Source of the DNA: an uncultured Clostridium sp.
GTDB taxonomy: Bacteria; Bacillota; Clostridia; Lachnospirales; Lachnospiraceae
Assembly: GCA_946553025.1 (NCBI GenBank)
Contig: CAMNRM010000045.1
Span: 1-41,263 of the forward strand
Direction: 5' to 3'
DNA: 41,263 nucleotides
How positions within the stretch are numbered: the first letter of the stretch is position 1; every line of letters starts with the position of its first letter. The notes under the pieces were generated by a model. The model saw only the letters and a list, made by a program, of their open reading frames with translations, was not told the DNA's origin and made no database searches. Made by a program: the position numbers and the translations under genes. Of the stretch, positions 7,146 through 41,263 are shown piece by piece.

Positions 7146-8723
7146 GTGAAGAGAAGAAATTTTATTGTTATAGGTTTGGCAGCAGTTATGCTTTCCGGGT
7201 GCAGCGGGCAGACAACCGCAGAAACGACATCGGCACAGGCAGGTATTCAGGCAGAAAATACGCAGGATATGGTTTTTGGGGAAGCCGGAGGGAATGCTAC
7301 AGAATCCGAAAATGATGTTTCTACCGTAAGGGCAGCGGCAGACGGAGAGGGTGTTTCTGGCGGTTCAGTTACGCCGGGAGCAGCAAATGTTCTGGAGAAT
7401 GCCGGGGAAGCGTCGGAAAAATCCGTGGTTTATATGACTACATCCATCACTCCGGAAGGGCTTATGGCGGTTTATGATGCCCTTGGAAGCGAGGTAAGCG
7501 GCAGGGTGGCAGTGAAACTGAGCATGGGCGAGCCGGGAGGGCATAACTTTTTATCCCCGGATTTGATTAAGGATCTGGTGGCGCGGGTAAACGGGACGAT
7601 TGTAGACAGCAATACGGCCTACGGCGGACGGCGTGCCAGTACCGAGCTTCACCGTCAGGTGGCCCAAGATCATGGGTTTGCAGCGATTGCGCCGATTGAT
7701 ATTCTGGATGCCGAAGGGACACTGGATTTGCCGGTGGAGGGCGGAAAACATCTGACAAAGGATATTGTAGGGGCTAATCTGGCAAATTATGATTCTATGC
7801 TGGTGCTTTCCCATTTTAAGGGCCATGCCATGGGCGGATTTGGCGGGGCTTTGAAAAATATTTCGATTGGGATTGCCTCATCCAACGGAAAGCTGCTGAT
7901 TCATTCCGGCGGGTCAAGTGACAGAAGCTGGTCCGGCGGTACGCAGGATGATTTCCTGGAATCCATGGCGGAGGCGTCCAAAGCTGTTAATGATTACATG
8001 GGCGGAAAGCTTCTCTATATTAATGTGATGAATAATCTGTCGGTGGACTGCGACTGTGACAGCAATCCTGCCGAGCCGGATATGCATGACATTGGTATCC
8101 TGGCTTCCACGGACCCGGTGGCGTTAGATCAGGCTTGCGTAGATCTGGTTTATGCGGCAGAGGACGGCGCATCTTTGATTGAACGGATGGAGTCGAGAAA
8201 TGGTATTCTTACCGTGATTCACGCCGAGGAAATGGGACTGGGAAGCAGGGCGTATACGCTGGTAAATATTGATGAAAAGGCACAGGAAATACAGGGACAG
8301 CAGGTATCCCAGGGCGTTCAGGAGGAAAATCAGAATGTTCAGGAGGAAAATCAGGGCGTTCAGGAGGAAAATCAGATGAAGATTCAGGCGGGGGATCGGG
8401 AAATGACGGCTGTGCTGGCGGATAACTCATCGGCGCAGGCATTAAAAGAACTATTGAAGAATGGGCCTTTAACCATTGCCATGCATGATTATGCAAAGAT
8501 GGAAAAGGTGGGGCCTATCGGTCAGAATCTTCCCACAAACGATGAGCAGATTAGCACAGTCCCCGGGGATATTATTCTTTATCAGGGAAATTCTCTGGTT
8601 ATTTATTATGATACCAATGCATGGAACTTCACCAGGATTGGGAAAGTCCAGGGAGTGACCCAGGAGGAATTAAAAGAAATTCTTGGCGAGGGAGATGTTA
8701 GCGTTACGTTTTCCCTGGAATAG
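7146..8723 (+). CDS. DUF362-domain lipoprotein with C-terminal cyclophilin-like domain
   Basis: This 525-residue protein is probably anchored outside the membrane: it starts with a lipoprotein signal ending LSGC (Cys19), then a 70-residue low-complexity spacer. Residues about 95-380 match DUF362, with conserved-looking HNFLSPDLI, SHFKGHAMGGFGGALKN and DPVALDQACVDLVY. Residues 390-410 are three VQEENQ-containing repeats acting as a hinge. The last 115 residues resemble the small cyclophilin-like fold (GPLTIAMHDYAKMEKVGPIG, PGDIILYQGNSLVIYYD). Translation starts at GTG 7146; the ATG just upstream is followed directly by TAA. It is probably cotranscribed with the permease at 8818. DUF362 members have no settled biochemical role, so the function is open. 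Confidence 0.88.
   Translation: MKRRNFIVIGLAAVMLSGCSGQTTAETTSAQAGIQAENTQDMVFGEAGGNATESENDVSTVRAAADGEGVSGGSVTPGAANVLENAGEASEKSVVYMTTSITPEGLMAVYDALGSEVSGRVAVKLSMGEPGGHNFLSPDLIKDLVARVNGTIVDSNTAYGGRRASTELHRQVAQDHGFAAIAPIDILDAEGTLDLPVEGGKHLTKDIVGANLANYDSMLVLSHFKGHAMGGFGGALKNISIGIASSNGKLLIHSGGSSDRSWSGGTQDDFLESMAEASKAVNDYMGGKLLYINVMNNLSVDCDCDSNPAEPDMHDIGILASTDPVALDQACVDLVYAAEDGASLIERMESRNGILTVIHAEEMGLGSRAYTLVNIDEKAQEIQGQQVSQGVQEENQNVQEENQGVQEENQMKIQAGDREMTAVLADNSSAQALKELLKNGPLTIAMHDYAKMEKVGPIGQNLPTNDEQISTVPGDIILYQGNSLVIYYDTNAWNFTRIGKVQGVTQEELKEILGEGDVSVTFSLE
8313..8375 (+). repeat. In-frame 21-bp tandem repeat, 3 units
   Basis: Three nearly identical 21-bp units encode GVQEENQ, NVQEENQ, GVQEENQ (residues 390-410), forming the linker between the DUF362 and cyclophilin-like domains. 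Confidence 0.85.
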
Positions 8724-31256: not shown

Positions 31257-32492
31257 ATGGCATTACATGTAATGGATGAAGCAAACCGCTGTTTACAGTG
31301 TAAGGTACCCCAGTGTCAGAAGGGCTGTCCCATTAATACGAATATCCCGGAAGCAATCCGCCTGTTAAAGGAAAATAAGCTGGATGACGCCGGAAGGATG
31401 CTGTTTGAAAATAATCCGCTGACGACGGTGTGCAGCCTGGTGTGCAACCACGAAAAGCAGTGTGAAGGGCATTGTGTGCTGGGTAAAAAGGGCGCTCCGG
31501 TGCATTTTTCCACGATAGAAAACTATATTTCCACCACCTATGCCAATAAGATGACCCAGGGTCCGGCCCCTTCCAATGGGATGCGGGTTGCCATTATCGG
31601 CTCCGGCCCGGCGGGAATTACGATTGCCATTATTTTGGCAAGGTACGGCTATAAGGTGACGATTTTTGAGGGAAAGGATAAGATGGGCGGCGTTCTCCGC
31701 TACGGAATCCCGGAATTTCGCCTGCCAAAGAGCGTGCTGGACGATATTCAGTACCGCCATCTGGAGTTAAAGGGAATCCAGTTCAGACCTAACACCAGCA
31801 TCGGTACGGCCATCGGCATCGACGATCTGTTCCGGGACGGCTACAAGGCTATCTTTATCGGAACCGGGGTCTGGAATCCAAGGTCGCTGCACATCAAGGG
31901 GGAAACCTTTGGCAACGTGCATTTCGGCATTAACTATCTGAATAATCCCGACAGCTACAAGCTTGGCGAGCGGGTGATTGTTATCGGTGCGGGCAATGCC
32001 GCCATGGATGTGGCAAGAACGGCAATCCGCAAGGGTGCACGTTACTTAACCTGCTTCTCCCTGACCAAAAAGATTGCCGCCAGCGAGTATGAGTTCAGCT
32101 ATGCACAGCTTGAGGGTGTAAATTTTGAGTATAACAAAGAACCGGTGGAAATCAAGGATGACGGGGTGATTTTCCGCGATTTGGAGGAAGATGAAGAGGG
32201 GAATTTAACGCCGATTGAGGGAACGGAAAAACTCTATCCTTCCGACAGCGTGATTATCTCCATCAGCCAGGGGCCGAGAAACCGGATTGTTTCCACGACA
32301 GAGGGGCTGAAGGCGAATGAAAAAGGACTTCTGGTTGCCGACGAAACCGGTCATACCTCCCGCCCGGGAATCTTTGCCTCCGGCGATGTGGTCAACGGGG
32401 CAAGAACCGTAGTAGAAGCGGTTGCGCACAGCAAGGTCGTGGCAGAATCCATGCACCAGTATATGCAGAGTTTGCCTAAGGATGAAGCGTAG
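31257..32492 (+). CDS. NAD(P)H-dependent flavoprotein, glutamate synthase small-subunit (GltD) type
   Basis: This 411-residue oxidoreductase has an N-terminal Cys-rich domain (Cys12, Cys15, Cys20, Cys24 and a second set CSLVCNHEKQCEGHC), which holds Fe-S clusters in the family. Then come an FAD-binding loop IIGSGPAGIT (about 113-122), a second dinucleotide fold VIGAGNAAMDVART (about 243-256) and the C-terminal FAD motif GIFASGDVVNGARTV. GltD-like proteins pass electrons from NAD(P)H to partners such as the glutamate synthase large subunit or other enzymes. Here no large subunit gene is near; AGGAGG precedes the ATG. It may be an independent electron-transfer module. Confidence 0.9.
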   Translation: MALHVMDEANRCLQCKVPQCQKGCPINTNIPEAIRLLKENKLDDAGRMLFENNPLTTVCSLVCNHEKQCEGHCVLGKKGAPVHFSTIENYISTTYANKMTQGPAPSNGMRVAIIGSGPAGITIAIILARYGYKVTIFEGKDKMGGVLRYGIPEFRLPKSVLDDIQYRHLELKGIQFRPNTSIGTAIGIDDLFRDGYKAIFIGTGVWNPRSLHIKGETFGNVHFGINYLNNPDSYKLGERVIVIGAGNAAMDVARTAIRKGARYLTCFSLTKKIAASEYEFSYAQLEGVNFEYNKEPVEIKDDGVIFRDLEEDEEGNLTPIEGTEKLYPSDSVIISISQGPRNRIVSTTEGLKANEKGLLVADETGHTSRPGIFASGDVVNGARTVVEAVAHSKVVAESMHQYMQSLPKDEA

Positions 32493-33060: not shown

Positions 33061-33088
33061 AAATCCGGCATAAATCAATGCCGGATTT
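33061..33088. terminator. Hairpin between convergent Gx-transporter and PucR genes
   Basis: AAATCCGGCAT (33061-33071) and ATGCCGGATTT (33078-33088) form a perfect 11-bp stem with a 6-base loop. The right arm lies inside the last codons of the PucR gene. T-tails are weak on both sides, but position and symmetry fit a bidirectional terminator. Confidence 0.65.
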
Positions 33089-34250
33089 CTTCGTATATTT
33101 TCTGCCATTGCAAGATAAGCATAAGTGATTTAATACTGAGAGAATAGCTGTTGGTTACGGGGACATTGAGGATTTGATTAATGGTGGAAAGCCGGTGACG
33201 GATGGTGTTGTAATGGACGTATAAAGCCGCCGATGTTTCTTTGATGGAAGCATTATGTTCATAAAAACTTAGAAAGGTTTTGTAATATTCCGTTCCGTTT
33301 TCGCGGTCATATTGTCCTAAAATATGGATGGAACTATCGATAATCTGCTGCAGTTCTTCCTGGTTTGCAGGGTTTAAAAGAATGCGGAAAATGCCCATTT
33401 GCGAAAAGCAGGTAACGGGGCATTTGTTCTTTTCTGCGATATTCATTGCCAGGGCAATCTGTGCTTCTTTATAGCTTTTTGAGGTATAAAGGAGCTTTTT
33501 ATATGCGCGTCCTACGCCCAGATGAAAGGCATAGTCCGGGAATTGTTTCTGGATGGTATCGGCAAGAGAAAAGGATGATTTTTCTAAAAATATTTCGGGT
33601 TTTTCTATTTTTTCCAGGTCACAGATAAGAATATAATGCCGGGGATTGGCAAGCATCCAGGTAAATCCATGCTGTTTGCTTAATTCCTGTAATTGCGGTT
33701 GAATCTCAGGAAAGACAGGGGAAAGAACAGCGCTTCCAAGCGATTTTTTTAAACTCCAGCCTAAAGCAATTCCCTGGTTTCGCAGGATTGTACTGTGTTC
33801 GTCGTCCAGCAGCAGGGACATCAGAAAGTCCTTGTCATAGCGGTAGGAAAGATCGTGATATTCGCTGCGGATAATCTCATAGGTAATGGTGGTAATCAGC
33901 TGTGTGGAGGTGCAGTGCGCAGGCAGGGCAATCACAGGAAAGCCCAGTTTATTTGCGGAGGAAAGTATCGCTTCCGGCAATTCGGGGATGTGGCGGCTGA
34001 TTTTAATCGCCAGGCCGGCACAGCCCTTATTGTACAGGGCATAGATTAGATTCATGCTCCACTCCGGGTTGTCTTTAATTAACTGCGCATTGTTGAGAAC
34101 CAGAGTATTTTTGGTTAGGTATTTCGTGCTGTCCGTGCTTTCCAACAGGGCAATGCCTTCGACGCTTCGCTGCAGGCCGGAAGCTCCTGCCAACAGCCGT
34201 GCATGTTCCATGACCGGAAGTTCGATGATATCTCGAATTAAGATTCCCAT
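33075..34250 (-). CDS. PucR-family transcriptional regulator
   Basis: This 391-residue regulator has the PucR N-terminal domain (about 1-120; IRDIIELPVMEHARLLAGASGL), a middle GGDEF-like/CdaR region and the C-terminal PucR helix-turn-helix (about 325-385) with NASIKETSAALYVHYNTIRHRLSTINQIL. Family members control purine, amino-acid or diacid catabolism and are often activators responding to the substrate. I start at the ATG at 34250, preceded by GGAGAGG. It diverges from the hydrolase-to-glycyl-radical-enzyme cluster at 34553 and is the natural candidate for its control. Confidence 0.9.
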   Translation of the reverse strand: MGILIRDIIELPVMEHARLLAGASGLQRSVEGIALLESTDSTKYLTKNTLVLNNAQLIKDNPEWSMNLIYALYNKGCAGLAIKISRHIPELPEAILSSANKLGFPVIALPAHCTSTQLITTITYEIIRSEYHDLSYRYDKDFLMSLLLDDEHSTILRNQGIALGWSLKKSLGSAVLSPVFPEIQPQLQELSKQHGFTWMLANPRHYILICDLEKIEKPEIFLEKSSFSLADTIQKQFPDYAFHLGVGRAYKKLLYTSKSYKEAQIALAMNIAEKNKCPVTCFSQMGIFRILLNPANQEELQQIIDSSIHILGQYDRENGTEYYKTFLSFYEHNASIKETSAALYVHYNTIRHRLSTINQILNVPVTNSYSLSIKSLMLILQWQKIYEEIRH

Positions 34251-34552
34251 AGTCCTCTCCTTTGCTGTTTTTTGTAAAATTTTTCCGCAGATAAATTGTA
34301 GCACACTTTTAGCAAAAAGAAAATTGCTTTTCTAAAATGTTCAAAAAAATGACAAATTCCGGGTGACTTTTCGTCAAAATGCAGTAAAAATCGTTTTTTC
34401 ATTGTCACCGTTGCCAATCAGGAAGGGCATAAATTGTTGTTGCAAACAAAGAAAAAAGAAAAAATTGACATTTAACATTTAGGTATTGTATAGTGATTTC
34501 AGATAACATACGGAAAAGAAATAAATTTATCATATAAAGGAGGTAGTAGCAA
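34251..34552. promoter_or_regulatory. Divergent regulatory region of the glycyl radical enzyme cluster
   Basis: On the plus strand TTGACA (34465-34470) and TATAGT (34489-34494) are 18 bases apart. TGAC-TTTTC-GTCA (34364-34376) is a small inverted repeat about 100 bases upstream, a possible regulator site. The region is otherwise AT-rich with no gene. Confidence 0.5.
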
Positions 34553-35611
34553 ATGACAAAGGCAGTACAGGAATGGAAAGAGAAGAAGTTTGGGCGGGTG
34601 ATTACCGAAGAAGAAATCATGCGGAGAAGCCATCCGGCGTGGCCGTACATGTATTTCAATCCTGGTCGGGCGGTTGACCCCGAAGAGGTGAATGAACTTC
34701 TGAAAGGTGCCATTGACGTACATATCCATGGAGCACCTTTGGGGGGATGGCTTCCGGGACGGCCCACCATGGTTCAGACATGTATTGACGCCAGTGAAGC
34801 AGGGATGAAGGCTCTGGTGTTTAAGGATCATCATACGATGGTCAACAACTGTGCCATTATTATTCAGGACTTTTTGGATCGCATGGCGAAGGATAAGGCC
34901 GAGAGAGGGGAAACCTTTACGCCGGTTCAGGTATTTGGCGGTATTACCTTAAATGAGTACGTGGGCGGCATGAACTTATCCGCGGTAAAGAAAGCCCTGG
35001 ATTATGGGCGCTGTAAAGAGGTTTGGCTTCCTTCCCTGAGTGCGGCACACCAGAAGGATGCGATGGGGCAGACCGGCGGTATCCGTGTCAGTGACTGCAA
35101 GGGAACGCTGACCCAGGAAATGATGGATGTTTTAGATGTTTTAGCCGAGTACAATGACAATACGGCTGGTGAGCGGGTTGTACTTTCCGCGTGTCATGTT
35201 TCCAATGAAGAAAAGTACGATATCCTGGCTTATATCAAGAAGAAGGGAATGGATGTTAAGGTACTTCTGGATCATATTACCCAGGAACTGACCATCCTTA
35301 CGCCGGAGGAAGCAAAGGAAATGATCGATATGGGCGGCTATCTGGAGTTTGCAGAAACAACCTGTATCCCGTGGCCGGGAATGCAGGATTCGATTATTGC
35401 CTTTGACTACAGCTTTTCCTTAATTAAAGAATTAATCAAAGAGAAAGGACCGGAACAGCTGGTGCTGATTACCGATGCAGGGCAGCCGGGGAATGAGCCG
35501 GTTCCAGGCTGGAGGGCGTTTATTAAGACCTTGCTTGCACAGGGCGTAGATGAAAAAGATATCCGGGTAATGCTGAGAGATACGCCGGCGATGCTGTTGG
35601 GAAAGATATAA
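34553..35611 (+). CDS. DUF6282-like metal-dependent hydrolase family protein
   Basis: This 352-residue protein looks like a member of the amidohydrolase superfamily. The metal-binding pattern IDVHIHGAP (His57, His59) follows a short N-terminal extension, then FKDHHTMVNNC (His93, His94), LSACHVSNEEKYDI in the middle and VLITDAGQPGNEP (late Asp). Such enzymes cleave cyclic amides, amines or related bonds with one or two metal ions. GGAGG precedes the ATG. It is the first gene of the cluster and is followed after 4 bp by the activase gene. A ring-opening or deaminating step in the pathway is plausible, but the substrate is unknown. Confidence 0.75.
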   Translation: MTKAVQEWKEKKFGRVITEEEIMRRSHPAWPYMYFNPGRAVDPEEVNELLKGAIDVHIHGAPLGGWLPGRPTMVQTCIDASEAGMKALVFKDHHTMVNNCAIIIQDFLDRMAKDKAERGETFTPVQVFGGITLNEYVGGMNLSAVKKALDYGRCKEVWLPSLSAAHQKDAMGQTGGIRVSDCKGTLTQEMMDVLDVLAEYNDNTAGERVVLSACHVSNEEKYDILAYIKKKGMDVKVLLDHITQELTILTPEEAKEMIDMGGYLEFAETTCIPWPGMQDSIIAFDYSFSLIKELIKEKGPEQLVLITDAGQPGNEPVPGWRAFIKTLLAQGVDEKDIRVMLRDTPAMLLGKI

Positions 35612-35615
35612 AGCG

Positions 35616-36518
35616 ATGAAGGGAATTATTTCGGAAATTACCAGTTTCTCCACACATGATGGTCCGGGAATTCGCACCACGGTATTTTTAAAAGGCTGTC
35701 CTCTGCGGTGCCGGTGGTGTTCTAACCCCGAAACCTGGAATCCGGTGTTTCAGCTTTACTTTATGCAGCGCAAGTGTACAGGGTGCAAAAAATGCGAAGC
35801 GGCCTGCCCGCAGTCGGCGATTGGCCCGGCAGATGCCGGGAAGGATCGGATTCGACGAACGGACTGCAATCTCTGTAAAAAATGTCTGGATGTTTGTCTG
35901 CCGGGTGCTTATCGGATTTCCGGCACCATCTATGAGTCGGAGGAATTGTTCCGAAAGATTCAGCGGGATAAACCGTTTTTTGGCGAGGACGGGGGGCTGA
36001 CCATCAGCGGCGGCGAGCCCCTCAGCCAGCCGGAATTTACCAGAGAAATGTTTGCGATGTGTAAACAGGATGGGATTTCCACCGTTTTGGACACCAGCGG
36101 TTTTGGGAAATGGGAAGATTTAGAAAAAATATTGGATTATACCGATATGGTTTTGCTTGATGTAAAGCTTATGGATGAGGAAGCCCATAAAAAATGGACG
36201 GGGGTTTCCAATCAGATTATTTTAGAGAATGGAAGGCGGATGGCAGAAAGGGTTCCTGTGCGGATCTCGCTTCCGCTGATTCCCGATGTCAATGACAGTG
36301 AAGAAAATTTACAGCAAACCGCAGCATTTGCAAAAGCATGTGGGATACATTGGATAGATCTTAATCCTCTGCACGTTCTTGGTGCAGCAAAATATGAAAG
36401 TCTTGGGATGGAATCACCGTACATCAATTTTAGAACGATGGAGAAAGAAGAAGTTGAAAAGGCCGTTTCTCTTTTCAGGGATAACGGATTACAGGTTTCT
36501 GTGGGAAGAATGATGTAA
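35616..36518 (+). CDS. Glycyl radical enzyme activating protein (radical SAM)
   Basis: This 300-residue enzyme installs the glycyl radical on its partner using S-adenosylmethionine. The radical-SAM cluster binds Cys28, Cys32 and Cys35 (CPLRCRWC). An inserted double-cluster ferredoxin domain has Cys54/57/60/64 and Cys84/87/90/94, typical of activases for non-PFL glycyl radical enzymes. LTISGGEPLSQPEF is the SAM-binding GGE motif, and DVKLMDEEAHKKWTG follows the family. The gene lies 4 bp after the hydrolase gene and two genes before the radical enzyme at 37913, its obvious target. Confidence 0.95.
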   Translation: MKGIISEITSFSTHDGPGIRTTVFLKGCPLRCRWCSNPETWNPVFQLYFMQRKCTGCKKCEAACPQSAIGPADAGKDRIRRTDCNLCKKCLDVCLPGAYRISGTIYESEELFRKIQRDKPFFGEDGGLTISGGEPLSQPEFTREMFAMCKQDGISTVLDTSGFGKWEDLEKILDYTDMVLLDVKLMDEEAHKKWTGVSNQIILENGRRMAERVPVRISLPLIPDVNDSEENLQQTAAFAKACGIHWIDLNPLHVLGAAKYESLGMESPYINFRTMEKEEVEKAVSLFRDNGLQVSVGRMM

Positions 36519-36591
36519 GTCATGACTGAAGGCCCAAACAGGCAGGGCATGACTTCTCAGATAAATACAATACTTTTTAGGAGGATGAGTT

Positions 36592-37872
36592 ATGGCAAAT
36601 TTAAAAACTAACTTTTTAGGATTTGAACTGAAAAATCCTGTTGGCGTGTCTTCCTGCGATTTTGGCGGGCATGAATATTTAGCAAAGAGAGTAATTGATC
36701 AGGGTATCGGATGGCTGACCGGCAAGACCTGCCACCGGATTAACGGTCCGCACCGCTGGCCTCGTCCGTTCTTTTATTCCTTAAAGAAATTCGGACCGGA
36801 GTTAAAGGACTCCTGGGTTTGCAGCCAGATGTTCCACAACATGCCTTACGAGGAATGGCTCGAGAAGGAAGGGCCAAAGATTGTTAAGCTCTGCCATGAT
36901 AACGGCGTTATGTACATAGGAAGCGTGGCATGTGCGGGAACCGATGCAAAAGAGTGGGCTTCGATGTGCCGGGATATGGAACAGTTAGGCTGTGATGCCG
37001 TTGAACTGGATACCGGCGGCCCGCACGCAACCTTTGGTGCCGTGGAATCCGAGAAAGACTGCGGCGCTCCTCTGGCCATGGACCCGGAGAAAGCTTATGC
37101 GGTTGCAAAAGCCTGTGTAGAATCCGTAAAAATTCCGATTATCTTTAAGTGTACGCCGCAGTGTGTAAACCAGGCTGCTGTTGCACTTGCTATCCAGAAA
37201 GCAGGCGCACACGCGATTTCTGCGAATAATTCCTTATACGGAACCTGGATTGACCATGAAACCGCAACCTTCTACGGCGGTCCTTACGCAGTGGGCGGAC
37301 TGATGGGACGTACCTGGCAGGTATTCTCCCTGGCAAAGCTTCTGGAAACTACCGCAACCTTAAAGAATTATCCGGTGATTGGTATCGGCGGTATCTTTAC
37401 CTGGGATGACTGTATCCGTTACTTAATGGCTGGTTCTTCCATTACCGGTTTATGTTCTGCGGTATACAGCAGGGGCGTAGGTGTTTTGAAGGATTGTATT
37501 GAAGGCATGGATGCCTTTATGGATCGCAAGGGCTACAAATCAATTGATGATTTCAAGGGATGTGTTGTTGATCAGTTTATGTATGTAAGAGATTATCCGA
37601 GAGAGCAGTGGATGGCAGCAAAATCGCCGATTCTTCCTGAATTTAAGATGGAAAACTGTACGAAGTGCGGACTCTGTGCGAAGGTATGTCCTTACGGGGC
37701 AATTGCAATGACGGAGAACGGGCCGCAGGTAAATACCGATGTATGTATGGGATGCGGCTGGTGTATGGGCCATTGTACGGCAAAAGAGCAGGTGATCAAT
37801 ATGGTTCGCCGCGATACCAAAGAACTTATCTGGGACGGGCGCGGAACACATGAAGCATGGTATAAAGACTGA
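36592..37872 (+). CDS. PreA/dihydroorotate-dehydrogenase-like flavoprotein with C-terminal 2[4Fe-4S] ferredoxin
   Basis: This 426-residue protein has a TIM-barrel flavin domain (about 1-330; LKTNFLGFELKNPVGVSSCDFGG at the start, VIGIGGIFTWDDCIRYLMAGSS for FMN phosphate binding) and a ferredoxin domain with Cys356/359/362/366 and Cys385/388/391/395. This layout matches PreA, the NAD-dependent dihydropyrimidine dehydrogenase subunit. The place of the catalytic Cys (LNxSCPH in relatives) reads ELDTGGPH, with Gly143, so the proton donor is missing or different. No PreT partner is adjacent; the GltD-like protein at 31257 is a conceivable but unproven electron donor. A role in reducing or oxidising a pathway intermediate is inferred. 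Confidence 0.85.
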   Translation: MANLKTNFLGFELKNPVGVSSCDFGGHEYLAKRVIDQGIGWLTGKTCHRINGPHRWPRPFFYSLKKFGPELKDSWVCSQMFHNMPYEEWLEKEGPKIVKLCHDNGVMYIGSVACAGTDAKEWASMCRDMEQLGCDAVELDTGGPHATFGAVESEKDCGAPLAMDPEKAYAVAKACVESVKIPIIFKCTPQCVNQAAVALAIQKAGAHAISANNSLYGTWIDHETATFYGGPYAVGGLMGRTWQVFSLAKLLETTATLKNYPVIGIGGIFTWDDCIRYLMAGSSITGLCSAVYSRGVGVLKDCIEGMDAFMDRKGYKSIDDFKGCVVDQFMYVRDYPREQWMAAKSPILPEFKMENCTKCGLCAKVCPYGAIAMTENGPQVNTDVCMGCGWCMGHCTAKEQVINMVRRDTKELIWDGRGTHEAWYKD

Positions 37873-37912
37873 AAAATCAGAAGCAGACAGATTAGTGAGA
37901 AAGGATGATTGT

Positions 37913-40375
37913 ATGGGTGCAAAAATAATCCCAAGAGAAGTCATTGGCAAACCGTCAACGCCGAGAGTTGATTTTCGGTATAAGGAATTAATCAGCAAGG
38001 AAGCCTATATTGATTCTGAGCGTGCGGTGCTTTATACCGATTATATTAAGGAACACTGGAATGAACCTATGTATGTCCGGGCAGGAGGGGCATTAAAACA
38101 TGTACTTTCCAACCTGACGCCGAAGATCTGGAAGGATGAACTTCTGGTCGGAAGCCAGTCCAGGTACTTTTTAGGAATGCAGGTTTTCCCGGAGTACGAG
38201 GCATGGATGCTGGAAGGGTTTAAGAAAATTAAACGTGAAGAAGAAAGCTACATGGAAGGCACACTCCAGAAACGTGAGGGGGAGCGCCTGGGCATTAACC
38301 GTATTTTCCCGGAGGACAGCAAAAAGATTCTGGAGGTAGCTACCTTCTGGGAGGGTAAGGATTGGAGAAGCCAGTCCGAAGCCTATCTGAAGGAAACGAT
38401 GGAGGACTATGACGATATCGAAAAGATGATGCAGCAGCTTGTATTCCTCCGCTTTATGTTCGATGTTCCTGAAGGCCGGGTAATTGTTGATTATCAGAAA
38501 ATGCTTGATTTGGGCTGCAACGGATTAATTAAGATTGCCAGGGCTCAGATGAAAAAGATTGGCAATTTACAGAACAAAGAGGATTTTGACCGCTATAACT
38601 ACTATAAGGGCACCATTATGGCCTTGGAAGGATTAATTGCCTTTGCCAATCATTACGCCGATGAAGCCCGGAGGCTTGCAAATGAAGAAAAGGACGAAAA
38701 GAGAAAAGAAGAACTGCTGATGATTGAAAAGATCTGCCGCAAAGTTCCGGCAGAACCGGCAGAAACCTTCCGGGAAGCGATTCAGTCCTTCTGGTTTACG
38801 CAGTTATGTCTGTTTATCGAATTAAACGGAAGAGGGATATCGCCGGGACGCTTTGACCAGTATATGTACCGTCCTTATTTGCAGGAAACCCAGTCGGGCG
38901 GGATTACGGATGAAGAAGTGCTGGAATATCTGGAACTGCTGCGGATTAAGTGTACGGAGCTGACCCGGGCACATGCAACCTTTACCGAGTCCTATCTTGG
39001 CGGCAGCATTTACCAGAACTTAACCCTTGGCGGGGTTGACCGTTATGGGAAACCGGCAGAAAACCGTCTGTCGGAACTGGTTTTGCAGGCAGGAATTAAT
39101 GTGCGCACCTGGCAGCCGACGATTTCGGTGCGCTGGCATGATCAGATGTCGGATCAGTTTAAAAATGCGGTTGTTACCTGTATTAAGGCCGGTTCAGGCT
39201 ATCCGGCGATTTTCAATGATGAGATGGCAACGGAGCGGTTTATGGAGTACACAGGAGCTTCTTTGATTGATGCCAGAGATTGGGCACCCTGCGGCTGTGT
39301 GGATATGCAGATCTGCGGAAAACGTATGGCAATGTATTCGGTTCCGCATACCAATAATCTGAAGATTTTTGAACTGGTGATGAATAATGGTGTAAACCCG
39401 GTAACCGGCGATAAGCTGATGGACAGTGAAGTTGATTTTGAAACGGCGACCTATGAGGAGATTGAGCGGGAATACAGCCGGATGATGCACCATATTATTG
39501 CACGGGAGGAGGAGTATTGGAATGCCATTATGCTGGTACACAATGACCTGGGCCTGGTTCATCCCATTATGTCCGCACTGTTAGACGACTGTCTGGAAAA
39601 GGGCAAGCACGCCTATGAGGGCGGATGCCGCTACAATGACCCGGCCTACGTTATCTCCTGCGGTCAGATCAATGTGGCGAACAGCCTTTCCGCGATTAAG
39701 AAGAATGTATTTGAAGAAAAGAGGTTTACGTTAAAAGAGTTAAAAGAAGCCATTGCCGCTGATTTTGAAGGCTATGACAGCATCCGCAAAGCCCTTCTGG
39801 ATGCGCCCAAGTACGGCAATGACGATGATTATGTGGATGATATTGTTATTCGTCTGTACGACGAGTGGGCTTCGGCAGCAACCCAGGTAACGAACTGGGT
39901 GGGAAAGAAGTGGCAGCCAAGTACCCTTTCCGTAACCACACAGGTGCTTTTAGGCAAGGCGTGCGGGGCAAGCCCGGACGGACGTAAGGCAAAAGATTTC
40001 CTGGCGGACGGCGCATTATCCGCATTCCCGGGAACCGATATGGAAGGCCCGACCGGATTAATTCGTTCGGCAACCAAGATCCATACGCAGAAGCTTCAGT
40101 CCACGTTATTTAATATGAAGTTTAACCCGACGGCCATCGAGGGCAAGGCGGGAAGCGAGAAGTTTATTAAGTTAAACGATGCCTATTTCAACCTTGGCGG
40201 TTATCAGATTCAGTATAATATCGTGGATCGGAACATGCTTTTAGATGCTCAGGAGAAGCCGGAAAATTACACCGATTTGATGGTGCGCGTGGCAGGATTT
40301 ACGGCGCGGTTTATCGACCTTGGGCCGGATGTACAGCGTCAGGTTATTGAAAGAACGGAGTTTGAAGCGCTGTAA
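37913..40375 (+). CDS. Glycyl radical enzyme of unknown substrate
   Basis: This 820-residue protein has the PFL/diol-dehydratase fold layout: an N-terminal PFL domain, ELNGRGISPGRFDQYMY and NLTLGGVDRYGKPAENRL in the barrel, the thiyl-radical loop DWAPCGCVDMQ (Cys462, with a further Cys460) and the C-terminal glycyl motif RVAGFTARF with Gly795. The family carries out difficult C-C, C-N, C-O or C-S cleavage anaerobically. After the thiyl Cys most eliminating members have Glu two residues on (GCVE); here it is Asp464. No N-terminal microcompartment signal is apparent. I start at the ATG at 37913 after AAAGGAT; an ATG at 37850 lies inside the previous gene. Specificity is not predictable from sequence by eye. 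Confidence 0.9.
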   Translation: MGAKIIPREVIGKPSTPRVDFRYKELISKEAYIDSERAVLYTDYIKEHWNEPMYVRAGGALKHVLSNLTPKIWKDELLVGSQSRYFLGMQVFPEYEAWMLEGFKKIKREEESYMEGTLQKREGERLGINRIFPEDSKKILEVATFWEGKDWRSQSEAYLKETMEDYDDIEKMMQQLVFLRFMFDVPEGRVIVDYQKMLDLGCNGLIKIARAQMKKIGNLQNKEDFDRYNYYKGTIMALEGLIAFANHYADEARRLANEEKDEKRKEELLMIEKICRKVPAEPAETFREAIQSFWFTQLCLFIELNGRGISPGRFDQYMYRPYLQETQSGGITDEEVLEYLELLRIKCTELTRAHATFTESYLGGSIYQNLTLGGVDRYGKPAENRLSELVLQAGINVRTWQPTISVRWHDQMSDQFKNAVVTCIKAGSGYPAIFNDEMATERFMEYTGASLIDARDWAPCGCVDMQICGKRMAMYSVPHTNNLKIFELVMNNGVNPVTGDKLMDSEVDFETATYEEIEREYSRMMHHIIAREEEYWNAIMLVHNDLGLVHPIMSALLDDCLEKGKHAYEGGCRYNDPAYVISCGQINVANSLSAIKKNVFEEKRFTLKELKEAIAADFEGYDSIRKALLDAPKYGNDDDYVDDIVIRLYDEWASAATQVTNWVGKKWQPSTLSVTTQVLLGKACGASPDGRKAKDFLADGALSAFPGTDMEGPTGLIRSATKIHTQKLQSTLFNMKFNPTAIEGKAGSEKFIKLNDAYFNLGGYQIQYNIVDRNMLLDAQEKPENYTDLMVRVAGFTARFIDLGPDVQRQVIERTEFEAL

Positions 40376-40468
40376 AAAGGATGCAGAGAAGCAAAGATTT
40401 TAGTTTACGAGTGCCGGATGGGTGTAAAATAGGAACAGTAGCAGAATAAACAGCAGTAAAGGAAAATA

Positions 40469-40500
40469 GCAGGGTCATGATCATGTGACCCTGCCTTTTT
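40469..40500 (+). terminator. Terminator after the glycyl radical enzyme gene
   Basis: GCAGGGTCA (40469-40477) and TGACCCTGC (40486-40494) form a perfect 9-bp stem with an 8-base loop, followed by CTTTTT. The MFS gene starts 19 bases later, so it is either read through or has little independent expression. Confidence 0.8.
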
Positions 40501-40518
40501 AAAAAGGGGTGAAAACGA

Positions 40519-41263
40519 ATGAAGAACAAATTTCGGCTGGGTTATGGAATTACGGGGTTTATTTTATTGATTTTTCTGGGGATGATTTATGCGTGGTCTA
40601 TTTTTATTAAGCCGCTGGAAATGGAGTTTGGCTGGCTCCGCTCCCAGACTTCTCTGATTTTTACGATTTCAATGATTGGTTTCTGTGTGGGGAACCTGGC
40701 GGCAGGGCAGATTACGCCGAAAACCTCGCCCAGAGTAAGTATCTTAATCGCGGCGGTTGTGATTGGTATTGGGTTTATTGCCTCCTCCTTTACCTCGTCG
40801 CTTCCCTGGATTTATATTTCCTACGGCGTGGCCTGCGGATTTGCGGTGGGTATCGGGGCGAATACGATATTGAGTACAACGCTGAAATGGTTCGCTGACC
40901 GGCAGGGTGTGGCTTCCGGTGCCCTGCTGATGGGGTTTGGCTTTGGAAGCATGGCGCTCAGTCCGTTTGTTACCATGCTGTTAAACAATATCGGATGGAG
41001 AAAAACGTTTTTTGTTCTGGGGATTATTTTCTCTATACTTTTAGTGATCGGGGCAATGATTATTAAAAATCCGCCAAAGGAATTTTCCGATGAACTGGTG
41101 GAAAAGGCCAGGAAAAATAACGTGATTTCTTCAAGAGATTTTGAAACGAAGGAAATGCTTCGCTCTCCATCCTTTTGGCTGTTTATGGTCTGGATTGTTC
41201 TTATCGGGGCGGGAAGCCTGGCCTTAATCAGCAATGCGGTTCCGGCAGCCTCCGATATCCTGG
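40519..41263 (+). CDS. MFS transporter of the OFA (oxalate/formate antiporter) type, 3' end outside window
   Basis: At least 248 residues are present; the frame runs off the window end. It begins GITGFILLIFLGMIYAWSIFIKPLE, characteristic of the OFA family, and continues with about six transmembrane segments and the central loop (ELVEKARKNNVISSRDFETKEML) ahead of the second half. OFA members exchange or import small organic anions. AAAGGGGTG precedes the ATG. The position right after the glycyl radical enzyme makes it the likely substrate importer or product exporter of the cluster, although a terminator separates them. Confidence 0.85.
   Translation, partial: MKNKFRLGYGITGFILLIFLGMIYAWSIFIKPLEMEFGWLRSQTSLIFTISMIGFCVGNLAAGQITPKTSPRVSILIAAVVIGIGFIASSFTSSLPWIYISYGVACGFAVGIGANTILSTTLKWFADRQGVASGALLMGFGFGSMALSPFVTMLLNNIGWRKTFFVLGIIFSILLVIGAMIIKNPPKEFSDELVEKARKNNVISSRDFETKEMLRSPSFWLFMVWIVLIGAGSLALISNAVPAASDIL

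Follow-up and report, generated by a model that had tools for sequence, protein, structure and literature searches.

In the gut, p-cresol, skatole, and trimethylamine are among the products made by glycyl radical enzymes (GREs), and the available text of PMC11528403 defines the superfamily by a C-terminal RVxG[FWY] motif. Ring reduction followed by hydrolysis is known from other systems. For instance, reductive dearomatisation by YgfK with subsequent hydrolysis by SsnA is given as established in the accessible part of PMC12507026, and clostridial PydA, which has no NAD(P)H part, uses reduced ferredoxin according to the portion of PMC7332683 at hand. In the literature searched, from which most subscription papers fall outside, the available texts contain nothing pointing to a cluster that pairs a GRE with dihydropyrimidine dehydrogenase, and a uric acid paper is the only one to mention both glycyl radical chemistry and PucR. 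Here, we describe such a combination in a 41,263-nucleotide contig from an uncultured Clostridium sp. of the Lachnospiraceae (CAMNRM010000045.1 in assembly GCA_946553025.1; the whole stretch is called the window, or contig C45). In this contig, a GRE is encoded beside its activase, a PreA/dihydroorotate dehydrogenase (DHOD)-like flavoprotein, and a DUF6282 hydrolase.

These four genes are well supported as a unit, which is rare in the genomes sampled. The unit ties together three orphan protein subtypes, namely a GRE that falls below the family cut-offs, a PreA-like flavoprotein that lacks the catalytic cysteine, and a subtype of DUF6282, so that finding the activity of one would constrain all three. 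Our preferred reading, plausible though tentative, takes the four genes for an anaerobic catabolic module: the GRE would cleave, and perhaps decarboxylate, an anionic aromatic or heteroaromatic acid, while the flavoprotein and the hydrolase would reduce and open the ring.

A conserved four-gene core

The core genes all lie on the + strand. The first encodes a DUF6282 (PF19799) amidohydrolase-like metal hydrolase of 352 residues (34553..35611; 144.6 bits against a Pfam cut-off of 26.8), and the second a radical SAM GRE activase of 300 residues with a CxxxCxxC motif and ferredoxin-like clusters (35616..36518; TIGR02494, 315.6 bits against 174.35). They are followed by the PreA/DHOD-like flavoprotein, whose 426 residues end in an iron-sulfur (Fe-S) cluster domain (36592..37872; domain scans and alignments), and by the GRE itself, of 820 residues (37913..40375; PFL-like 572 bits, Gly_radical 91.7 bits). 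We place the start of the latter at the ATG at 37913, since the longest frame, from 37850, would overlap the preceding gene. A gene for a major facilitator superfamily (MFS) transporter comes next, the successive gaps of this set being 4, 73, 40, and 143 bp, and a PucR-type regulator diverges on the - strand. Each protein of the module exceeds at least one Pfam cut-off, so chance resemblance is no concern. A sequence-only reading of the window had named these genes, from PucR to the OFA-type MFS transporter, and all were found as it described, strands included; the lack of aldehyde dehydrogenase and shell proteins on which it remarked was borne out among the 19 window proteins scanned, a subset of the open reading frames (ORFs), none of which contained either domain.

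The same genome contains three intact copies of the core in identical gene order, in the window and on contigs C100 and C54, with GREs that are 93% (C100) and 78% (C54) identical to that of the window. The C100 copy has its own PucR gene in the same place; it is preceded by a complete MFS gene, and a further one begins beyond the GRE. In the C54 copy, no PucR gene was seen, and an MFS gene was absent from the roughly 220 bases remaining 3′ of the GRE. The gene directly 5′ of that copy, on the same strand, encodes an OYE-type flavin oxidoreductase (Oxidored_FMN and Pyr_redox_2 domains; positions 7405-9357 of C54, locus L008), which may add enone reduction for the substrate of this copy. For the 11 of 21 gene pairs with estimable dS (pairs with genome G547, described below, included), dN/dS lies between 0.056 and 0.215, ratios that are rough because dS is mostly above 1, and the other 10 pairs are saturated; the module copies thus look used.

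Contig C45 stops at 41263, truncating the MFS gene, and C100 ends in the same bases inside its own, while C100 and C71 (the latter in reverse) begin with the same bases of an MFS C-terminus (C100, locus L007, 1-245 and 634-1863; C71, 23271-23507). Contig ends within near-identical MFS genes suggest tandem duplication of the whole module, and we infer a C45-C100-C71 tandem, at present three unjoined contigs, that the assembler would have broken. Between the window and C100, the part from the GRE to the MFS gene is 89-95% identical and that from DUF6282 to PreA 80%, as if gene conversion were active on the former.

For other genomes, the searches were confined to Bacillota, the phylum of the window, with its own genome in each draw by design, and only the best few candidates were scored per genome (two for the GRE, four for the PreA-like protein, and up to five for DUF6282), so that extra copies are undercounted; the GRE searches, for example, recover two of the three own copies. 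GRE matches at E <= 1e-160 occurred in 4 of 398 genomes, namely the own genome, G547 (1563 bits), G554 (615 bits), and G433 (603 bits), and the strong ones are limited to the first two. The PreA-like alignment matched at 1e-70 in 2 of 368 genomes, again the own genome and G547. With the DUF6282 alignment, 3 of 368 passed 1e-30, these two with at least 584 bits and G542 weakly (133 bits). Strong matches to the three proteins therefore coincide in the same two genomes only. G547 belongs to another class and has only the phylum in common with the genome of the window. Its GRE and DUF6282 genes are adjacent at the end of contig C67, and its activase (cut) and PreA-like genes at the end of C105, in the orientations that one split cluster would have. 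In that genome, the GRE is preceded by genes for a sensor kinase and a sigma-54 response regulator instead of PucR.

Thus, the neighbours named in the sequence-only reading are conserved in part: DUF6282, activase, and PreA-like genes accompany the GRE in every one of the three copies of the own genome and also in G547, there as two adjacent pairs, but PucR and the transporter were not seen in the latter. The conserved core is four genes, and the regulator and transporter vary. Given that the own genome was present in the draws by design, the independent support comes from one genome. Further searches with the GRE returned only the own genome from draws of its family (1 of 397 genomes), genus (1 of 11), and class (1 of 391), which overlap and differ in threshold, and only G547 at 1e-190 from its order (1 of 20). 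A genome_contigs search with the single GRE found eight relatives of 29-34% identity, its patterns coming from one sequence and being able to miss orthologues as distant as that of G547. The viral contigs scanned gave no match, and tblastn of plasmids at E 1e-100 gave 12 records, none above 35.5% identity. As far as is known, this rarity in sampled genomes limits the ecological weight of the module.

Placement of the glycyl radical enzyme

The enzyme carries the marks of its superfamily: an RVAGF motif with Gly795 as the radical site (codon 40295..40297), a mid-chain thiyl cysteine, Cys462, in the loop CGCVDMQ (codons of Cys462-Val463-Asp464, 39296..39304), and, alongside, the radical SAM activase above its TIGR02494 cut-off. 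It scores under the threshold of each of the 12 NCBIfam models that it matched, the best being that of indoleacetate decarboxylase (IAD; NF033718, 646.7 against 1100 bits), and scores 558 bits against 678 with the PFL2-3 model. With NF033718, the GRE of G433, the control and a true IAD, scored 1576 bits, the G547 orthologue 701, and that of G554 870 (IAD-like, below the cut-off). The G554 gene and its activase (locus L025, 4291-10232) adjoin 2-hydroxyacyl-CoA dehydratase-type genes, with a TrpB-like gene on the other side, all named by reading; this is another GRE setting that is still uncharacterised. Solved GREs score at most 452 bits with the window enzyme, a value reached by glycerol dehydratase, and CutC is also among the best.

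We aligned 15 GREs and built a midpoint-rooted tree of 13, leaving out the incomplete frames L015 and L016, which stayed in the alignment, and trimming the G547 row by 38 residues before its likely start. The partial L017 and a further GRE of the own genome were never included; the latter (locus L006, contig C2:59717-62173) is 33% identical and has a stop codon within the match. The window family forms one group (100/100), as do the two IAD-type rows (100/99), and all six stand together (100/100) in a tree that holds no hydroxyphenylacetate decarboxylase (HPAD), AAD, or PhdB, and from which branching inside or outside the arylacetate decarboxylases as a whole is not readable. Cys-x-Asp occurs only in the four GREs of the window family, eight of the 15 aligned having Cys-x-Glu and three neither. 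Arg189 (codon 38477..38479), within an EGR motif, is found in these four and in the two IAD-clade GREs, while seven of the other nine have His and two Glu. At the position of IAD His514, 14 residues after the cysteine, the window GRE has Ser476 and the other three members have Ala. In the available text of PMC6181972, IAD and HPAD contain Glu1, and the authors modelled His514 of IAD against the indole N-H. The pocket would thus seem to keep a candidate anion-binding residue, Arg189, and to lose the presumed indole contact.

On these comparisons, the window GRE belongs to a new subfamily, marked by Cys-Val-Asp. The expectation that it would not cluster tightly with a characterised family has held so far as the 12 models, which do not include AAD or PhdB, and the clade apart from true IAD can tell. 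If its catalytic dyad is altered as the alignment indicates, a further GRE class of this sort would extend the chemistry of these enzymes.

IAD remains the nearest clade, with the EGR motif in common, and we rejected membership on account of the score and the replacement of Glu1 by Asp464 and of His514 by Ser476; identity is 36.5%, the length is 820 residues against 868 for the model, and the companions, PreA-like and DUF6282 proteins, differ. HPAD is likewise a GRE with a Cys loop and an activase. We rejected it as well, at 481 bits against 1150 for NF033715, and 7e7l, a solved structure named hydroxyphenylacetic acid decarboxylase, reaches 357 bits, less than glycerol dehydratase does. The gaps of the window core (4-143 bp) are too small for a gene for the HPAD-type Fe-S small subunit; the ORF lists around C100 and C54 covered ORFs of at least 130 aa. 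The HypD, CutC, HpsG/HpfG, and PRK09983 equivalogs were also rejected (413-466 bits against cut-offs of 1000-1109). Together with glycerol and propanediol dehydratases, they have the same GRE domains and radical sites; the window enzyme differs in scoring below the cut-off wherever a model exists, in the replacement of what we take to be diol-binding positions, and in having Asp464 for Glu.

Candidate chemistry of the module

Dihydropyrimidine dehydrogenase is the best solved relative of the flavoprotein's profile, and the two align over the FMN and Fe-S parts. However, Gly143 occupies the position of the catalytic cysteine of that enzyme (C671 in pig), and the NLSCPH-type loop of PreA is replaced by LDTGGPH. 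Caballeronia PreA has Cys at this position in the alignment, and the solved chains aligned show Ser or Ala, which we take to be variants of Cys671. We thus rejected identification as a true PreA, with NF006183 at 158.8 bits against a cut-off of 335. A DHOD-like relative from Cetobacterium (24.7% identity) lies in a purine/uric-acid-type cluster and also lacks the whole PreA Cys loop; its neighbour genes suggest that it is UacX-like, in which case loss of the loop does not rule out ring reduction. Like PreA/PydA, YgfK, and UacX, the window protein combines a DHOD-like flavin domain with an Fe-S domain and is paired with an amidohydrolase-type gene. A DHOD-fold reductase gene and a candidate ring-opening hydrolase gene are present and co-occur, a pair that might correspond to a reductive ring-cleavage pathway of the Pyd or Uac type. 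In contrast to PreA systems, a PreT-like gene adjoins the core in none of the four places (window, C100, C54, and G547). The window does encode a PreT/GltD-like NAD(P) oxidoreductase with a Fer4_20 domain (31257-32492, + strand), the second gene before PucR and 4.1 kb upstream, which goes unmentioned in the sequence-only reading and could feed the PreA-like protein. As an obligate partner it was rejected, none being seen beside the C100, C54, or G547 cores, with flanks in G547 limited by contig ends.

The DUF6282 protein has the full domain with an HxH motif, two later histidines, and an aspartate, in amidohydrolase order. In an alignment of 11, these are H57, H59, H215, H241, and D308, to which we presumptively assign metal-ligand roles from the amidohydrolase superfamily, and K91 is invariant. 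In the GRE-linked subtype, the N-terminal region is longer: HxH is preceded by about 55 residues, compared with at most about 30 in the seven distant relatives aligned, to which the subtype is 28-34% identical. A PDB sequence search with the alignment gave weak matches of the phosphotriesterase-homology kind (1bf6, E 0.0039) among chance-like ones, with designed repeat proteins ranking higher (2.4e-6) and renins lower. On plasmids, 45 records matched, of which we read six, one of them unannotated (Fusobacterium). Four of the five annotated stretches are aromatic or organic-acid clusters, two of them clearly aromatic: in Thermus, the context includes catechol 2,3-dioxygenase and 4-carboxy-4-hydroxy-2-oxoadipate aldolase, and in Halorussus, a benzoate transporter and AMP-binding proteins. 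Roseomonas and Pelagibacterium have aldolase, MmgE/PrpD, or fumarylacetoacetate hydrolase-type genes, and the Priestia context is not telling. DUF6282 is not named in the literature searched. A fourth DUF6282 gene of the own genome, which is of the ordinary type, lies in a stretch of contig C21 with no GRE (locus L038, 8615-9505), near family III CoA-transferase, HpcH-type aldolase, and SDR-like genes named by reading, with no domain scan.

By analogy, the scheme of YgfK and SsnA, together with that of ferredoxin-dependent PydA, can be transferred to the PreA-like and DUF6282 pair, with a GRE step added. With PucR control in the window, an aromatic or heteroaromatic carboxylate would be imported by the OFA-type carboxylate transporter. 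The activase would place a radical on Gly795, from which it would pass to Cys462, and Arg189 would bind the anionic group of the substrate. The GRE would then cleave a C-C bond, most simply by decarboxylation, the reaction of the sister clade with IAD, or else some other bond next to the ring, Asp464 occupying the position that Glu usually takes. The flavoprotein, presumably fed by reduced ferredoxin, would dearomatise or reduce the ring, and DUF6282 would open it hydrolytically. It is possible, if still doubtful, that this amounts to an undescribed anaerobic ring-degradation pathway, in which a Cys-Asp class of GRE acts on a (hetero)aromatic acid, a ferredoxin-fed DHOD-fold enzyme reduces the ring, and DUF6282 opens it, the three diverged copies serving related substrates.

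Several points weigh against this reading. The PreA-like protein lacks the cysteine of the pyrimidine enzyme, so that kind of ring reduction is uncertain, and the PreA model was matched only weakly. HPAD and IAD yield end products, p-cresol and skatole, that need no further ring enzymes, and the changes of His514 to Ser or Ala and of Glu1 to Asp mean that the chemistry may not be decarboxylation. Distant conservation counts as a single data point, from one genome whose cluster is split over two contigs.

Similar logic is found in phloroglucinol degradation and resorcinol reduction, where reductive dearomatisation precedes hydrolytic ring cleavage (PMC10470551, available text). There, PGR depends on NADPH, and DPGC belongs to the cyclase family, with isatin hydrolase as its nearest characterised homologue; the likeness to the window module considered here is one of scheme, and the part of the text at hand names no GRE in the cluster. 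The same text mentions a ferredoxin-dependent resorcinol reductase and gives no gene for it, and the literature searched holds no other mention. The DHOD-fold flavoprotein would be a candidate type for such enzymes, with resorcinol-type substrates as one class among the candidates.

An order in which the GRE acts last is unlikely. The ring would then first be reduced and opened by the PreA-like and DUF6282 proteins, after which the GRE would eliminate or cleave a C-N, C-O, or C-C bond of the resulting linear carboxylate, as a lyase or dehydratase with Asp464 as the base. Eliminases relying on the acidic residue in the Cys-x-Glu loop are common in the PFL2 group of GREs. The HpsG and HypD models also match the window GRE, if only at 466 and 459 bits and so under their cut-offs, glycerol dehydratase gives the highest PDB score, and the operon starts with DUF6282. 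However, His164 and Asp447 of glycerol dehydratase, which we take to bind the diol, are replaced by Arg189 and by Ser or Ala, and the nearest clade is a decarboxylase.

It is rather improbable that the GRE is instead a terminal decarboxylase releasing an end product, with the PreA-like and DUF6282 proteins making its arylacetate-like substrate from a precursor. There is precedent in HPAD, the last step toward p-cresol, and in IAD and PhdB, which give skatole and toluene from amino acid fermentation products, according to the available text of PMC13285125. Oxoacid:ferredoxin oxidoreductase, acyl kinase, or aminotransferase genes are of the kind that stands beside HPAD in C. scatologenes in that text or is invoked for its pathway, but none of these was noticed beside the module copies by ORF reading and partial domain scans, with no systematic search.

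As for the ring, the sequence-only reading had proposed a nitrogen heterocycle or a cyclic amide or imide, with DUF6282 as a cyclic amide hydrolase. Membership of the PreA family, PucR, and the Cetobacterium relative in its purine-type cluster agree with this, but the missing cysteine of dihydropyrimidine dehydrogenase and the aromatic or organic-acid setting of distant DUF6282 relatives do not, and we regard it as quite doubtful. A carbocyclic ring, phenolic or otherwise, is no less probable.

Lastly, GRE activases need a low-potential electron and the PreA-like gene adjoins the activase gene in G547 as well as in all three copies of the own genome, yet it is highly improbable that the protein is a dedicated electron carrier rather than a catabolic enzyme, as the two genomes preserve its entire DHOD domain, at about 60% identity, and, to our knowledge, known GRE systems do without such a partner.

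Regulator, transporter, and flanking features

The PucR-type regulator (33075..34304, - strand; ORF calls and domain scan) has PucR, GGDEF_2, and HTH_30 domains. An internal Met begins MGILIRD, and the first 18 codons of the ORF may be untranslated. A promoter-like site of sigma-70 type, TTGACA-18-TATAGT, lies 5′ of DUF6282 (34465..34494, + strand) and matches the consensus at 11 of 12 positions, in a scan whose total is no better than that of shuffles (11 sites against 13.2). Similarly, a terminator-like hairpin of 11 pairs and a T run lies between the GRE and MFS genes (40469..40494, + strand), the scan giving nine hairpins against 8.9 in shuffled sequence.

The OFA/lactate-type MFS transporter, assigned by domain scans, is represented in the window by its first 248 residues (40519..41263, + strand). 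A related OFA-type MFS gene (53%; contig C79, 135-4522, locus L047) adjoins another PucR gene elsewhere in the genome, followed by AroM-like and DUF1177-like genes named by reading. Farther upstream in the window, at 7146-8723, a single ORF fuses a DUF362 domain with a cyclophilin-like one (Cyclophil_like2).

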